This document shows positions 1-19,435 of a stretch of 64,000 nt of DNA, one piece after another. Position 1 is the first letter of the stretch; each line of letters starts with the position of its first letter. The translations under genes were made by a program, and so were the position numbers. This DNA comes from Dehalococcoidia bacterium. GTDB taxonomy: Bacteria > Chloroflexota > Dehalococcoidia > GIF9 > AB-539-J10. A model generated the notes under the pieces. The model made no database searches and had not been told where the DNA came from. It saw only the letters and a list, made by a program, of their open reading frames with translations. The stretch covers positions 1 to 64,000 of the forward strand of contig PWUU01000077.1 in assembly GCA_003562475.1 (NCBI GenBank), written 5' to 3'.

Positions 1-78
1 CGGCATCAGAACCTCCTCGACAGAGATTCTATGGCCGTTCGTTGCCCAGCGACGCTTCCCTTCTAAGCCATCATCGGG

Positions 79-170
79 GTGGCCAATTTGCTCCGTGACG
101 CTGGCCTAGTTTGCTCCGACAAGGTGGCCAATTTCCTCCGTGACGGTGGCCAATTTCGTCCGAAATACGC
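79..170 (+). mobile_element. Terminal multi-repeat region resembling an IS21-family (istAB) element end
   Basis: Four tandem ~22-bp units: gtggccaatttgctccgtgacg / ctggcctagtttgctccgacaag / gtggccaatttcctccgtgacg / gtggccaatttcgtccgaaatacgc. IS21-family ends carry repeated transposase-binding motifs of this general form. Identification is from memory. Confidence 0.5.
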
Positions 171-637
171 AGCTGGCCATAAGTATGGTGCGTCGTCATC
201 GCTTAGCTGAGCGCTTTCTTACAGACATATTGAAGATCCCGTGGCATCAGACACACGAGGAGGCATGTTTGCTTGAACATGCAATGACCGAGAGAGTGGT
301 AGAGAGACTGTATGACGTTCTGGGAGAACCTGAGACATGCCCGCATGGGAACCCTATACCGATGGGCCATGCGCTACCTGTTGCACGCGGTGTGCCCTTG
401 AGCAGTGTCATCGATGGCTCAACTGCTGTCGTGGAGCGGATTTCTGAAGAGGCAGACTGTTCGTCTGAACTCATGGAACATTTCGAGCGGACGGGCGTTA
501 AACCAGGGGCTGCAATCACGGTCCAAGAAGTAGCTGATTATGCTGGCACGATATCAGTATCGATAGGCACGAAGTCGGTCTCCCTTGGAACCAAAGCAGC
601 GGCAATGGTCTGGGTAATCCCCGACGGTAAGACCTAG
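140..637 (+). pseudogene. 5'-truncated DtxR/MntR-family metal-dependent repressor (dimerisation/metal-binding and FeoA/SH3-like domains only)
   Basis: VRRHRLAERFL...HEEACLLEHAMTERVVERLYDVLGEPETCPHGNPIP is the typical DtxR dimerisation/metal-binding block. The ~60-aa N-terminal HTH is absent and replaced by IS-end sequence. Confidence 0.8.
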
Positions 638-837
638 ATTTCAGTGCCGAGAAGTGTCATTGCATCTACCCAGATGCCCTGTGTGCCATTGAGAGTAAGT
701 ATCTACTAACGAACCAATTTGGTATCTACTAATGGTCGCGACAGGGCAGAGACAGACAGTCATGGGTTTCCGTATGAATCCTCATCACAACTAGAGTCCC
801 TGGCTGACACGCAATGAGATCGAAAGGAGAAGGAGAC

Positions 838-1881
838 ATGTCATCTCGCCTTAGAATGGCGACGCTGCTGGTGTTGCTCTCGATGATGGTCATCGCCGCA
901 ACCTCATGCACTCGGCCTGCACCAACTGTGCCGCACGTTCCACAGTCGCCAGGTTCACAAGCCCTTACGGTGTATTCGGGTCGGGCGGAAGGACTGGTTC
1001 AGCCGGTGATTGAACATTTCAGTGAATCCACCGGCATAGATGTCCGAGTCCGCTATGCTGGCACTGCCGAACTGGCGGCCACTATTATGGAAGAGGGCAG
1101 GAACAGTCCGGCGGATGTATTCTTCGCCCAGGACCCCGGCGGAATAGGAGCTGTTGAAGCGCTGCTGACGCGGCTGCCGGAAAGCATTCTCGCACTCGTA
1201 GAGCCCGAGTTCGTCTCCCCGGAACACAAGTGGGTCGGTGTTTCCGGACGGGCGCGCGTCATTGCCTACAACACCCGGCACGTTAAAGAGTCGGAACTGC
1301 CTGATGATGTCTTTGATCTGACGGATCCGAAATGGCGGGGGCGCATTGGATGGGCTCCTACCAATGCTTCGTTGCAGGCCATGGTCACTGCGATGAGGCA
1401 TGTGTGGGGAGAGGAGAAGACCAGGCATTGGCTAGAGGGCATGCAGGCTAATTCCCCCAAAGTCTACGCCAACAACACCGCCCAGATTGCCGCACTTGGC
1501 ACGGGTGAAGTCGACGTCGCGCTGCCGAATCACTACTACCTTTACCGTTTTCTTGAGGACGAGGGAGAATCCTTCCGTGTACGGAATTACCACCCTAGAG
1601 CAGGCGGACCGGGAGCCGTGATGTTGGTGGCGGGTGCAGGCATTCTTGATACGTCCGACAACAAAGGATCTGCGGAGAAGTTTCTTGAGTTCATGCTCTC
1701 TCCGACTGCGCAAGAGTATTTCGCCACCCGAACCTATGAATATCCTGTGATACAGGGTGTCGTTACGCACCGATTGCTGACCCCATTGGCCGAAATCAGC
1801 AGCCCCGAAATCAGCATGGCTGATATGGCGGATCTGAGGGGTACGCTGAATCTGTTGAGGGAGGTGGGGATAGTCCCCTAG
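838..1881 (+). CDS. Fe(3+) ABC transporter substrate-binding lipoprotein (FutA/FbpA-like)
   Basis: Lipoprotein signal ending ATSC; LTVYSGRAEGLVQPVIEHF...; RBS aaaggagaaggag upstream of ATG 838. The ORF-track start at 814 is probably too early. Confidence 0.85.
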   Translation: MSSRLRMATLLVLLSMMVIAATSCTRPAPTVPHVPQSPGSQALTVYSGRAEGLVQPVIEHFSESTGIDVRVRYAGTAELAATIMEEGRNSPADVFFAQDPGGIGAVEALLTRLPESILALVEPEFVSPEHKWVGVSGRARVIAYNTRHVKESELPDDVFDLTDPKWRGRIGWAPTNASLQAMVTAMRHVWGEEKTRHWLEGMQANSPKVYANNTAQIAALGTGEVDVALPNHYYLYRFLEDEGESFRVRNYHPRAGGPGAVMLVAGAGILDTSDNKGSAEKFLEFMLSPTAQEYFATRTYEYPVIQGVVTHRLLTPLAEISSPEISMADMADLRGTLNLLREVGIVP

Positions 1882-1886
1882 GAAGT

Positions 1887-3515
1887 ATGGCAACCACACT
1901 CACGAAGTTGGCACGTGAGAAGGCAGGTCGGGTGGGCAACCGTACACTTCCCCCGATCGCCTTGTGGCTATCGGCAGCATTGATAGCCATCGCGGTCTTG
2001 CTGCCATTGGGCTACTTGGTGCTACGGGCAACGGGGGCAGGCACTGAGCTGTGGAGTCTGCTATTCCGTACTCGCACTCTTGAGATCATGGGACGGACCA
2101 TGGCTCTGGTCGTAGCAGTGACGGTAGTATCACTGGCGTTGTCCTTACCACTTGCCTGGTTGACCCAGAGAACAGACCTGCCGCTACGGCGGTTATGGTC
2201 GGTTTTGACTGTTCTTCCTCTGGTAATCCCCAGCTACGTAATTGGTTTTGTGATTGTGGCAGCGCTCGGACCACGCGGTGTACTACAGCAGACGCTTGCC
2301 GGCCCCTTCGGTTTGGACAGGTTGCCGGAAATATATGGCTTTCCGGGAGCGCTGCTTGCTATTACTCTGGTCGCATACCCGTACATTCTGCTTCCATTGC
2401 AGTCCGCCGTTAGCGGTCTGGACCCTCGCCTGGATGAAGTCGCTCGCAGCCTGGGGCATGGACGATGGGGTGTCTTTCGGCGGGTAGTCTTGCCTCAGCT
2501 TCGCCCAGCCATGGCGGCCGGCGCTCTGCTTGTAGCTCTGTACACGCTGCGAGACTTCGGAGCGGTATCACTCCTTCGTTACGAGACTTTCACCTGGGCC
2601 ATATATCTCCAGTACCAGACTTCCTTCGACAGGACCCTGGCTGCCGGTCTCTCATTGGTTCTGGTGGTCATAGCGGTAGCAATCCTGTTTCTGGAGTTTC
2701 GTACAAGGGGAAATCTGAAGTACCACCGGGCTGCTGCCGGGGCCGGGCGCTCTCCAGTCGGTATCCGGCTGGGCAGATGGCGGTGGCCGGCCCTCGCCCT
2801 GTGCACCGTGGTTGTTCTTGTGGCGCTGGTCATGCCCGTCTCTATTCTGGGCTACTGGGTAGTACGCAGCTTGTCCGTTGGTGGTGATCTTTGGCAAACA
2901 ACTGGTTATGGATGGAACTCGGTGTATGTCTCTTGTCTGGCGGCGGTGGTCACCGCCGTTGCCGCCATCTCTGTCGCTTTTCTGGACGTGCGCTATTCCA
3001 GCCTGTTCAGCAGACTTCTTGAGCGAGCAACCTATGTTGGCTTCGCGTTGCCCGGGATAGTCATTGCTCTAGCGCTGGTCTTCTTTGGCGCCAATTATGC
3101 GACGTTTGCCTACCAGACTCTTGCGATGTTGGTCTTCGCCTATGTGGTGCTGTTTCTGCCGCAAGCAGTGGGAGCCATCCGCTCATCTTTGCTGCAACTT
3201 AGTCCACGACTTGAGGAAGCTGCGCGCAGTCTTGGACGCACGCCTTTGCAGACGTTGACTGCGGTTACGTTGCCCCTGGTGCGCCCAGGAATCCTGGCTG
3301 GGGCAGGCCTGGTCTTCCTGACAACGATGAAAGAACTCCCCGCCACTCTCTTGTTGAGCCCAATTGGGTTCCGAACGCTCGCCACTTCTGTCTGGGCTGC
3401 CACATCCGAAGGGTCATTTGTGAGGGCCGCGTTTCCTGCGCTCCTACTCATCTTGCTGTCGTCTGTTCCGATGGCTTTTCTGATGATCAGGGAGAAGAGT
3501 AATAATGACAACTAG
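1887..3515 (+). CDS. Iron ABC transporter permease, two fused BPD_transp_1 halves (FbpB-like)
   Basis: 542 aa with ~12 TM pattern; two EAA-like loops (LDEVARSLGHGRWGVFRRVVLPQLRP and LEEAARSLGRTPLQTLTAVTLPLVRP). Confidence 0.88.
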   Translation: MATTLTKLAREKAGRVGNRTLPPIALWLSAALIAIAVLLPLGYLVLRATGAGTELWSLLFRTRTLEIMGRTMALVVAVTVVSLALSLPLAWLTQRTDLPLRRLWSVLTVLPLVIPSYVIGFVIVAALGPRGVLQQTLAGPFGLDRLPEIYGFPGALLAITLVAYPYILLPLQSAVSGLDPRLDEVARSLGHGRWGVFRRVVLPQLRPAMAAGALLVALYTLRDFGAVSLLRYETFTWAIYLQYQTSFDRTLAAGLSLVLVVIAVAILFLEFRTRGNLKYHRAAAGAGRSPVGIRLGRWRWPALALCTVVVLVALVMPVSILGYWVVRSLSVGGDLWQTTGYGWNSVYVSCLAAVVTAVAAISVAFLDVRYSSLFSRLLERATYVGFALPGIVIALALVFFGANYATFAYQTLAMLVFAYVVLFLPQAVGAIRSSLLQLSPRLEEAARSLGRTPLQTLTAVTLPLVRPGILAGAGLVFLTTMKELPATLLLSPIGFRTLATSVWAATSEGSFVRAAFPALLLILLSSVPMAFLMIREKSNNDN

Positions 3516-4569
3516 CATTGCCGTACGTTGCACAGGGTTGTGTAAGGCCTACGCGCAGACGCCGGCCATCCACGATGTCAGCCTGGAGCTCGAAGAGGGT
3601 AAGTTCTTGGCACTGCTTGGGCCGAGCGGCTGTGGCAAGACCACGTTACTGAGACTGTTCGCCGGTTTCGACGTGCCTGATAGTGGAACCATCGAGATAT
3701 GCGACAGGATGGTCAGCGGTGATGGTGTATTTCTGCCGCCCGAGAACCGCAAGGTGGGGATTGTCTTCCAAGACTATGCTCTGTTCCCTCACCTGGACGT
3801 CTCCGCAAATGTCGCCTTCGGCATCGCGAATCGCGTCGACCGGAAAGAGCGAACTGCGGAAATGCTCTCTCTTGTCGGTCTTGAGGGGATGGAGCACCGC
3901 ATGCCGCATGAGCTCTCGGGCGGCGAGCAGCAGCGCGTCGCACTTGCACGTGCCCTGGCACCGGACCCAAAGGTGCTGTTACTGGATGAACCATTCTCCA
4001 ACCTCGATGCAGATCTTAGAATACGAATTCGGGCTGAGATCAAGGATATCCTGACCTATGCTGGAGCCACGGTGATCTTTGTGACCCACGACCAGCACGA
4101 GGCCCTGTTCATGGGCGACCTCGTCGGAGTGATGAGTGTGGGACATGTGGAACAGGTGGATACTCCGCAGGTCATGTTCGAGAAGCCCGCGACTCCTTTT
4201 GTAGCCAGATTCATCGGGTTAGCTGATTTCATCACCGGCACCATCAAGAATGGACAGCTCGTAACTGAAGTCGGAAACATCCCAGCACAGGAGCAGATGC
4301 CAGAAGATGAGACGGTCAGTATCATGCTTCGTCCTACCCATGTAAGCATCAACCCTGATCCGAACGGGATTGGGGTTATCAAGGGGCGGGTATTTCAGGG
4401 TGGCCATTACCTTTACCAGGTGCAACTTCCATCTGGTGCCGTCGTGCACAGCCTCCAGCCGTGCAATAACAGCCACCCTATCCACACGCGTGTATCCATT
4501 GATGCAATCCTCGACCAAGATGTCGTGTATTTCGGTGACAAACGGATTGCTGACTGTCGGCCTAAGTGA
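3505..4569 (+). CDS. Iron ABC transporter ATP-binding protein (FbpC-like)
   Basis: Walker A GPSGCGKTT, signature LSGGEQQRVALARAL, Walker B VLLLDEPF; start overlaps the permease stop. Confidence 0.9.
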   Translation: MTTSIAVRCTGLCKAYAQTPAIHDVSLELEEGKFLALLGPSGCGKTTLLRLFAGFDVPDSGTIEICDRMVSGDGVFLPPENRKVGIVFQDYALFPHLDVSANVAFGIANRVDRKERTAEMLSLVGLEGMEHRMPHELSGGEQQRVALARALAPDPKVLLLDEPFSNLDADLRIRIRAEIKDILTYAGATVIFVTHDQHEALFMGDLVGVMSVGHVEQVDTPQVMFEKPATPFVARFIGLADFITGTIKNGQLVTEVGNIPAQEQMPEDETVSIMLRPTHVSINPDPNGIGVIKGRVFQGGHYLYQVQLPSGAVVHSLQPCNNSHPIHTRVSIDAILDQDVVYFGDKRIADCRPK

Positions 4570-5308: not shown

Positions 5309-5383
5309 GTGGCGCGGTCAGTATCGGACCTGAAATCCGCTTCCCGCAAGGGAGTGTGGGTTCGAATCCCACCCTCGGCACCA
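5309..5383 (+). pseudogene. Degenerate tRNA-Ser(TGA)-like 3' part (anticodon arm, variable arm, T arm, CCA)
   Basis: cggacctgaaatccg anticodon arm, tcccgcaaggga variable arm, gtgggttcgaatcccac T arm, cctcggcacca. No upstream 5' acceptor strand (gccgagg) was found. The 5' boundary is approximate. Confidence 0.6.
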
Positions 5384-6409: not shown

Positions 6410-7129
6410 ATAAAGACGAAGGCGATTGGTATGATCGGCGGTCTCAGTCCGGAATCAACGCTCTACTACTATCGTGTCCTCATTGACCTCTGCCATAGAA
6501 TGGAGCCTCTGAAGGGACGGCACGTGATCAGATATCCGGACATCATCATCTACAGTGTAGACCATGACAAGGTGTATTCACTGATGGTCGATGGGAAGTG
6601 GAGTGACGTAGCATCATACCTCGCGGGAGTATTCCGCAGTCTCGAGAAAGCTGGTGCCCAGTTCGGACTCATATCCGCAAATACGCCCCACGCGGTCTTC
6701 AACGAAATACAGGTGCAAACGGAGTTGCCTTTACTGAGCATCGTCGAGGTGACCTGCAAGAGAGTAGTTGAGAGCGGACTGACGAAGGTTGGCCTATTTG
6801 GCACAGCGATGACTATGGAGATGGATTTCTATCCTCGTGTGTTTGCCGAGTGTGGCGTCTCTGTGATAGTTCCCTCACCGACTGAACGAGAGTATATTGA
6901 TAGTCGGTTGGTCAATGAGCTTTCGATAGGAAGGATCTTGGAAGGGACACGAAACGAATTCGTCCGAATTGCGAGAAGAATGGTCAGCGAAGAGTCGATC
7001 CAGGGATTGATACTCGGGTGCACGGAGATCCCACTGCTACTTCGTGAGAGCGGGACAATCGGCATACCGTTCTTTGACACCTCGGCAATACATGCAGAGG
7101 CTGCTCTGGCTCGAAGCGTCACAGGCTAG
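6410..7129 (+). CDS. Aspartate/glutamate/hydantoin racemase family protein
   Basis: TKAIGMIGGLSPESTLYYYRVL...ISANTPHAVF...GLILGCTEIPLLL. Start codon uncertain: possible ATA at 6410 behind an aggagg; otherwise upstream ATGs at 6335 or 6245. Confidence 0.75.
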   Translation: MKTKAIGMIGGLSPESTLYYYRVLIDLCHRMEPLKGRHVIRYPDIIIYSVDHDKVYSLMVDGKWSDVASYLAGVFRSLEKAGAQFGLISANTPHAVFNEIQVQTELPLLSIVEVTCKRVVESGLTKVGLFGTAMTMEMDFYPRVFAECGVSVIVPSPTEREYIDSRLVNELSIGRILEGTRNEFVRIARRMVSEESIQGLILGCTEIPLLLRESGTIGIPFFDTSAIHAEAALARSVTG

Positions 7130-7469
7130 CTGACCATCCCTTCTCAAGAAGTGGGAACATACTTGGTTAGGGAAGATATCGGGTTACGTCGATGAAGCAG
7201 TAGGAGAACATACTTGTGGATGCCTTGGTGATCAGCCAGTCGTTTGAGTCGGCTGGCATGTGCTCTTCGTCAAGTCGATATAACTGTGACTGCGAGACGC
7301 GTAGTCGAAACGAAGTGAAGCACAACTGCAGGGCTGGCGTGTAGCTGTTGCTGTGAGAGCTTGTGACTCGTAGATATGCAGGCACTAACTTTGTGACACG
7401 TAGCCAGACGATCGTGTTCGCTCCATCAGAACCGTTCGCACCTAAGCTGAGGAGACTGCGAGAAGGACT

Positions 7470-8738
7470 ATGTCACTTGAACGCGTGAGAAAGGAAGTGG
7501 TTGAACTCGGCCGTCTTGGACGGCGTGAACCAGTCGCTGTACATAGGGCGGAAGGACTTGATCCTTCGAAGGGTATCTTCAGGCTGGAAGGGACTCGGCA
7601 GATGACAGATGCCCGCGAGTTCGTTCTGGGACTTATGCGCAAGGCTGGCCTTGAGATACGATTCGATCGAGTGGGTAACATGTTCGGCAGGAGACAGGGT
7701 CGCGTGTCCGCCAGAGCTGTCATGTCCGGATCTCACCTGGACTCGGTTGCCAATGGGGGTCAGTTTGATGGAGTTGTTGGAGTGGTAGGGGGACTCGAAG
7801 CCGTTAGGAGACTTGCCGAGGAAGGGTATCCGCATGAACGTCCAATTGAGATTGCAGTGTTCTTTGGAGAAGAAGGATCAGCGTTTGGCAGGGGTGCCAT
7901 TGGCAGCGCCGTGCTTGCGGGAATGCTATCTCAGGCTGATGCCTTGAATCTAACAGACGAGAACGGCACTTCGCTTCGTGAGACACTCCGGTGGAGTGGC
8001 CACGTCGGAGATCTGGAGATGCAACTGGCTGATGACGTTGCGTGCTTTGTAGAACTGCACGTTGAACAGGGCTCGAGACTCTACAACACAAGAACCCGGA
8101 TTGGTGTGGTGGACAGAGTCATTGGGTCCAGCTGGCTTTCGATTGTCATCACTGGTCAGCAGAATCATGCTGGAACAACTCCAATGTCGGAACGAACGGA
8201 TGCTTTGGTTAGTGCTGCCGATCTTATCCTGCAAGTGAAACGATATGCCGAAACCATGGCAAGACAGTACGACGGTTCTGCTGTGGCCACCGTCGGGAGG
8301 TTGAAGGCTTTCCCAAATGCACCGAATGTGCTTTCTGAGACAGTGGAATTGGGCGTTGATGTTCGAGAGATGGTTGATGAGAGGATGGAAATCCTCATGA
8401 ACCAGATCCTTGATGCTGTGTCTGGTCTGGGCGGCAGGTATCAGGTAAGTACAGAGGCGGTTGTCAGGCACAAGTTCGGAGTCGCTGATCTCTCGCCCAC
8501 AGTTGTTGGCACGATTGAACGGTGCGCATGCCGACTGAGGTTGACGACAAGCAGGATTCACAGTCACGCCGGACATGATGCAATGAACTTGGCTCGAATC
8601 GTTCCTGCGGGCATGATATTCATCCCGAGTCAGCAAGGCATTAGCCATTCGCCTATGGAGTGGAGCGACTGGAGTGATATCGAGGCGGGCATCCGGGTAC
8701 TGACGGAAACTCTGAAAGATCTCTCGCGACTGGAATAG
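7470..8738 (+). CDS. Zn-dependent hydrolase, N-carbamoyl-L-amino-acid hydrolase/allantoate amidohydrolase family (M20)
   Basis: GSHLDSVANGGQFDGVVGVVGGLEAVRRL, FFGEEGSAFGRGAIGSAVLAG, ELHVEQGSRLY, SHAGHDAMNLARIVPAGMIFIPSQQGISHSPMEWS. Confidence 0.88.
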   Translation: MSLERVRKEVVELGRLGRREPVAVHRAEGLDPSKGIFRLEGTRQMTDAREFVLGLMRKAGLEIRFDRVGNMFGRRQGRVSARAVMSGSHLDSVANGGQFDGVVGVVGGLEAVRRLAEEGYPHERPIEIAVFFGEEGSAFGRGAIGSAVLAGMLSQADALNLTDENGTSLRETLRWSGHVGDLEMQLADDVACFVELHVEQGSRLYNTRTRIGVVDRVIGSSWLSIVITGQQNHAGTTPMSERTDALVSAADLILQVKRYAETMARQYDGSAVATVGRLKAFPNAPNVLSETVELGVDVREMVDERMEILMNQILDAVSGLGGRYQVSTEAVVRHKFGVADLSPTVVGTIERCACRLRLTTSRIHSHAGHDAMNLARIVPAGMIFIPSQQGISHSPMEWSDWSDIEAGIRVLTETLKDLSRLE

Positions 8739-18933: not shown

Positions 18934-19007
18934 CCTGTTGGAACCTTGGTGTCGGAGTTAAGATGCGCTTCCAAGAAGGGAGTGTGGGTTCGAATCGCTT
19001 CCTCGGC
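18934..19007 (+). pseudogene. Second degenerate tRNA-Ser-like 3' fragment
   Basis: cgcttccaagaagggagtgtgggttcgaatcgcttcctcggca matches 37/43 nt of the 3' part of the 5309-5383 fragment by manual count. Weaker similarity continues into the anticodon arm; T-arm pairing is broken. Confidence 0.5.
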
Positions 19008-19435
19008 AGTCTGGATGACGTGTCTCTCTTCTGGTGCGCTTGGATGTCATCATCTGTCAGGCGTGGTCATTTGGAGGTAGTGAGTGACGTGCCGGATGTC
19101 TTCTACGGCACCCTGTCCGTGCCTGCAAGAGGAACGGCCATGTGCTTCACCTCAGCCAGGCAGTAAGGAGTGCTGGCTTCTGTGAGCACGTGCGGAGACA
19201 TTCGGGATGGCACCAGCCTGGAGACGTATGACAAGTTGGAGGTCATTCATCCCATGAGTTGTATTGGGGTTTGAGTCTTCCTCAATACCCGGATCCTGCG
19301 CAGTGAGGGTTATGCGACTCCTCGCAAGGTAGACAGCGCGCTCGCGGTGCGGCGACGCGGCCTCGGAATTCCGCTGCGACAGGGCAAAGGTCGCAGCCCC
19401 CACTCGAGTCTGCTTGGTGTCTCCTCGGGGTGGTG

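Follow-up and report, generated by a model that had tools for sequence, protein, structure and literature searches.

DtxR-family repressors bind DNA as metal-activated dimers, and dimerisation is required (PMC10317159; PMC7762939). Among elements of the IS21 family, a 6-bp direct repeat is listed for ISLxc1 (PMC2516522), while the member studied in PMC10122671 has a repeat of 5 bp. We describe here a DtxR/IdeR-type repressor gene that is split by an IS21-family element next to genes for an FbpABC-type importer. The stretch of DNA analysed, called the window in the following, comprises 64,000 bp (C29:1-64000), and its base 1 coincides with the contig end. The assembly consists of 133 contigs (2.46 Mb), is composite and has an estimated contamination of 8.7%. 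The assembly broke inside the IS, so that the 5' half of the repressor gene opens contig C9 and the 3' half opens C29. We consider it very likely that the split gene reflects an ordinary IS21 insertion between the DNA-binding and the dimerisation domain, and that the contig merely ends within the IS. As the sequence shows, the element entered the codons linking the two domains, thereby duplicating the 6 bp GCTGGC. The features of the locus are compiled in Table 1.

Table 1. Features of the split repressor locus in the window and on contig C9 (positions without contig name refer to the window).
Feature	Position	Strand	Remarks
IS21-family left end	1..171	-	terminus TGCGTATTTCGG at 171, tandem terminal repeats; cut by contig end at base 1
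3' part of split dtxR/ideR-type repressor gene	172..637	+	dimerisation/metal-binding and FeoA/SH3-like domains
Target-site duplication GCTGGC	172..177	+	other copy is the last 6 host bases at C9:1530 (-); exactly 6 bases common
DtxR-box-like site TAAGTATCTACTAA (TTAG-N6-CTAA, 1 mismatch)	696..709	+	motif scan; suggestive only
DtxR-box-like site TTGGTATCTACTAA (1 mismatch)	719..732	+	motif scan; suggestive only
fbpA-like ferric-iron-binding protein gene, intact	838..1881	+	best solved match 7w3w, E 2e-84
fbpB-like fused two-domain permease gene, intact	1887..3515	+	domain matches
fbpC-like ABC ATPase gene with TOBE domain, intact	3505..4569	+	domain matches
58-bp copy of the 3' end of tRNA-Leu(TAA), candidate attachment-site repeat	5325..5382	+	95% identical to intact tRNA-Leu
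HTH-encoding 5' half of dtxR	C9:1530-1753	-	PF01325 match inside
Intact tRNA-Leu	C9:16183-16267	-	orientation matches the 5325-5382 copy once contigs are joined through the IS

The window holds the 3' two-thirds of the repressor gene. A preliminary description of this DNA had recognised the DtxR dimerisation/metal-binding block and the SH3-like domain in the reading frame, and domain searches bear this out: the frame 140-637 matches PF02742 (Fe_dep_repr_C) with residues 11-74 (E 1.6e-28) and PF04023 (FeoA, the C-terminal SH3-like domain) with residues 85-160 (E 2.4e-12). It had also attributed the residues before about AISMVRRHRL to IS21-like terminal-repeat sequence. This agrees with the exact junction between IS and host at 171/172 and with a terminal repeat, TGGCCAATTTGCTCCGTGACG, at position 80 and, with one mismatch, at 125 (chance expectation 0); residues ahead of LAISMV are wholly or partly encoded by the IS. 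The codon at 140 is GTG and not, as described, ATG. The loss of the helix-turn-helix (HTH) holds for the window frame, in which no PF01325 match was found by domain search, but not for the genome, since a PF01325 search of its own contigs recovered the HTH half at C9:1568-1732 (-) with an E value of 2.7e-13. Rfam gave no match in the window.

The two halves fit together at their broken ends. On C9 the host sequence stops with ...AAGCTGGC and the IS begins with TGCGGATTTCGG; in the window the host sequence resumes with GCTGGCCATAAG after the IS terminus ...TACGCA. Joining the flanks with one copy of GCTGGC, done solely to display the empty site, yields one uninterrupted reading frame, 227 codons long with a GTG start (...LTEKGTKLAISMVRRHRLAERFL...), and neither half has a frameshift or stop. 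Thus, the missing HTH half, which the preliminary description had proposed to seek beyond the IS, lies on C9 together with the matching repeat. An assembly chimera, considered there as an objection, was rejected because the HTH half is found across the IS, the 6-bp repeat recurs at both breaks and the join is in frame. Either contig as a contaminant was likewise judged unlikely, as the two flanks complete each other; C9 moreover bears a gene that is 78-91% identical in congeners, which counts against contamination. Both contig ends are seen in the sequence, and from them we infer that C9 and C29 were linked through one IS copy.

Intact relatives read on across the insertion site and hence support a split gene. 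A scan of genome contigs found four of them, in MAGs labelled Acidobacteria, Chloroflexi (two) and Dehalococcoidales, and identity to L057 and L058 is 67-69% in the N-terminal half and 66-72% in the C-terminal half. In L057 a full-length repressor gene is located directly upstream of fbpA and fbpB homologues, while in L058 it is found just after an fbpC homologue, near FTR1 and Fe2+-transport (PF10634) genes. Between dtxR and fbpA of L057 (1000-1240, +) an apparent C-terminal Fur-family fragment (HFVCLTCGGIF...) was read by eye from the translation. A Dehalococcoidales contig, L059, encodes at 6736-7542 (+) a protein that starts with the N-terminal part of a Fur-family member (match at residues 16-64) and continues in frame as the C-terminal portion of an FbpC-like ATPase (TOBE at residues 186-250); this fusion is either a deletion or an assembly artefact. 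Same-genus DtxR matches were considered as the intact allele and rejected, being paralogues of 38-42% identity. The genome itself carries one further DtxR-type gene, intact and 182 codons long, with feoA and feoB immediately downstream (C111:25188-27000). Apart from the split repressor, its product is the sole DtxR-type protein of this genome; the two share about 36% identity in short segments.

Assignment of the element to the IS21 family is based on istB beside istA, multiple terminal repeats and a short target duplication; the assembled istA lacks the middle, catalytic part. On C9 the right end adjoins istB (NF038214, E 4e-71, above cut-off) and the 3' part of istA, which encodes a Mu-transposase C-terminal domain (PF22483) and reaches the first base of the contig. 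The NF033546 profile did not detect this istA copy. The minus strand of the left end in the window carries GAGGAGG ahead of an istA-like ATGCCG start at bases 6-1. An internally deleted derivative of about 360 bp on another contig (C41:1475-1830) retains both ends, its left part being 84% like the window end and its right part 79% like the C9 end, so that both ends can be assigned to a single type of IS. The split dtxR is preceded, at a distance of about 300 bp, by an isolated second IS21-type end (C9:2047-2101, -), a relic of another insertion.

The preliminary description had named an FbpABC-type Fe(III) importer as the next genes, correctly. Judged by sequence, binding protein, permease and ATPase are encoded in one operon; none of the three genes reaches an NCBIfam equivalog cut-off, and therefore Fe(III) as substrate rests on similarity. 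The motif TTAG-N6-CTAA agrees with the DtxR consensus TTAGGTTAGCCTAACCTAA (PMC7762939) over the first 14 bases of the latter. Versions with one mismatch precede dtxR on C9 (one site) and fbpA in the window (two sites). It is exact in L057 and L059, both before dtxR and before the downstream genes, and in both its second site overlaps a TTGACA-N17-TATACT promoter, as read from the sequence. The motif was picked from these same loci and is suggestive only; across the 64-kb window 3 sites with at most one mismatch were found (2 of them before fbpA) compared to a mean of 6.1 in shuffled sequence, hence fewer than after shuffling. Within the window an fbpA promoter could not be identified, and the upstream region of fbpA holds no near-perfect palindrome. 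The earlier proposal that the repressor regulated the adjacent importer is probably right.

Repressors of this family need dimers and the insertion parts the DNA-binding domain from the rest, thus neither piece should repress. The 5' half reads into the IS, the C9 frame terminating within the right end after 107 residues, and encodes an HTH protein devoid of the dimerisation domain; the 3' half shows no visible start signals. Metal-dependent DNA binding as a dimer is expected to be lost after the split, and most likely the insertion inactivated the repressor. With two DtxR-box-like sites upstream, fbpABC has probably lost local iron repression. Sites of this kind before both dtxR and fbpA make derepression of the importer probably the likeliest effect, and the better of the two outcomes foreseen in the preliminary description. 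The second DtxR-type regulator, beside feoAB, might compensate, and another regulator may bind the sites before fbpA.

The wider surroundings suggest that the operon came with an island. A truncated tRNA-Leu copy sits after fbpC, and the matching orientation of the tRNA-Leu repeats links C9 and the window independently of the IS junction. Integrase matches in short frames are present at C9:14444-14788 (-) and C9:5748-5966 (+), and the stretch of C9 between them contains genes for a heavy-metal P-type ATPase and an IS transposase. In a search of congeners and the order for the empty site in a close relative, none of the other 83 genomes of the order had the importer permease at E <= 1e-60. Together, the repeats, the integrase remnants and the permease distribution suggest that dtxR and fbpABC belong to a genomic island, at least about 22 kb long and putatively integrated at tRNA-Leu. 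Congener pieces around the URO-D gene of C9 have no gene order in common with the window, and ARAGORN found no complete tRNA in the window. A third, weaker tRNA-Leu-like fragment (80%) at window positions 18949-19008 leaves the right boundary of the island ambiguous.

How far the insertion is established in the population deserves consideration. Some cells could carry the IS and others an intact gene, and the contig break would then reflect strain variation instead of a fixed mutation; we regard this as rather unlikely. The IS in which the assembly broke is present there in no further full-length copy, the absence of frameshifts and stops from both halves fits a young insertion, and the C9 part of the IS has a G+C content of 0.66 versus 0.57-0.58 in the surroundings, as for a recent arrival. 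A composite assembly with contamination at the estimated level also fits a mixed population. However, no uninterrupted dtxR allele was found among the contigs. Improbable, in our view, is that the halves are no longer neighbours because recombination between IS copies separated C9 and C29 after insertion. No contig of the assembly spans the full IS between them and related IS ends occur on C34, C37, C41 and C104, as such recombination would have it, but these ends are only 77-84% alike, the identical 6-bp repeat marks both ends as once the two sides of one insertion, and the tRNA-Leu repeats are still found on either side of the pair in consistent orientation.

The products of the halves invite further readings. 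The preliminary description had proposed that the 3' fragment, if translated from a start within the IS or close to it, could be dead for DNA binding and exert a dominant-negative effect on DtxR subunits. The frame from GTG 140 is open and contains all or nearly all of the dimerisation and FeoA/SH3-like domains, and His, Glu, His, Cys, Glu and His are retained at metal-ligand positions of the DtxR family (read from alignments). Yet the window offers no promoter-like site in 1-900 and no ribosome-binding site ahead of the possible starts 140, 146 and 185, the primary metal site takes its helix-1 ligand from the C9 half, and no intact subunit of this repressor that could be poisoned was found in the assembly, the C111 protein being only about 36% similar in short segments. 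A literature search with the terms used found no paper on a dominant-negative DtxR. We consider this proposal very improbable. It is more doubtful still that both halves are expressed and reassemble, or that the HTH-less half modulates another DtxR-type regulator, either of which would rewire the iron response.

An IS21 insertion that inactivated the repressor thus remains the preferred reading. As read from the sequence, the event is ordinary, a real IS21 insertion; the gene described as "decapitated" represents a routine event seen edge-on where a contig stops, with the other half recoverable from the same assembly. If the insertion is fixed, iron uptake may be unregulated there, which is of local interest only. 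In an uncultured lineage, the locus provides a candidate for a naturally knocked-out DtxR-type repressor; the ferric-iron importer alongside is intact, and a mobile island probably carries them. The closest named relatives of genes from this lineage mostly bear the label Chloroflexi.

Compared with characterised DtxR/IdeR proteins (IdeR of M. tuberculosis, 1fx7, and S. erythraea, 7b1v; DtxR of C. diphtheriae, 1bi0), the L057 protein shows an identical set of three domains, and among solved structures it is matched best by IdeR and DtxR, with E values of 1e-39 and below. Unlike in the known systems, the gene described here is split by an IS. A Cys occupies the Cys102 position, as in the iron-sensing DtxR/IdeR type, whereas the alignment places Glu at the Met10 position, where the classical iron type has Met. 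MntR has Asp or Asn there (PMC10317159), and the Glu thus matches neither type. The element resembles the IS21 family in istA/istB, multiple terminal repeats, TG...CA ends and the 6-bp direct repeat; as the middle of istA is not assembled, it cannot be named within the family. The importer compares well with FbpABC/HitABC systems: the fbpA product matches solved ferric-iron-binding proteins with E values of 2e-84 and below, and with the fused permease and the TOBE-containing ATPase a transport of Fe(III) is predicted.
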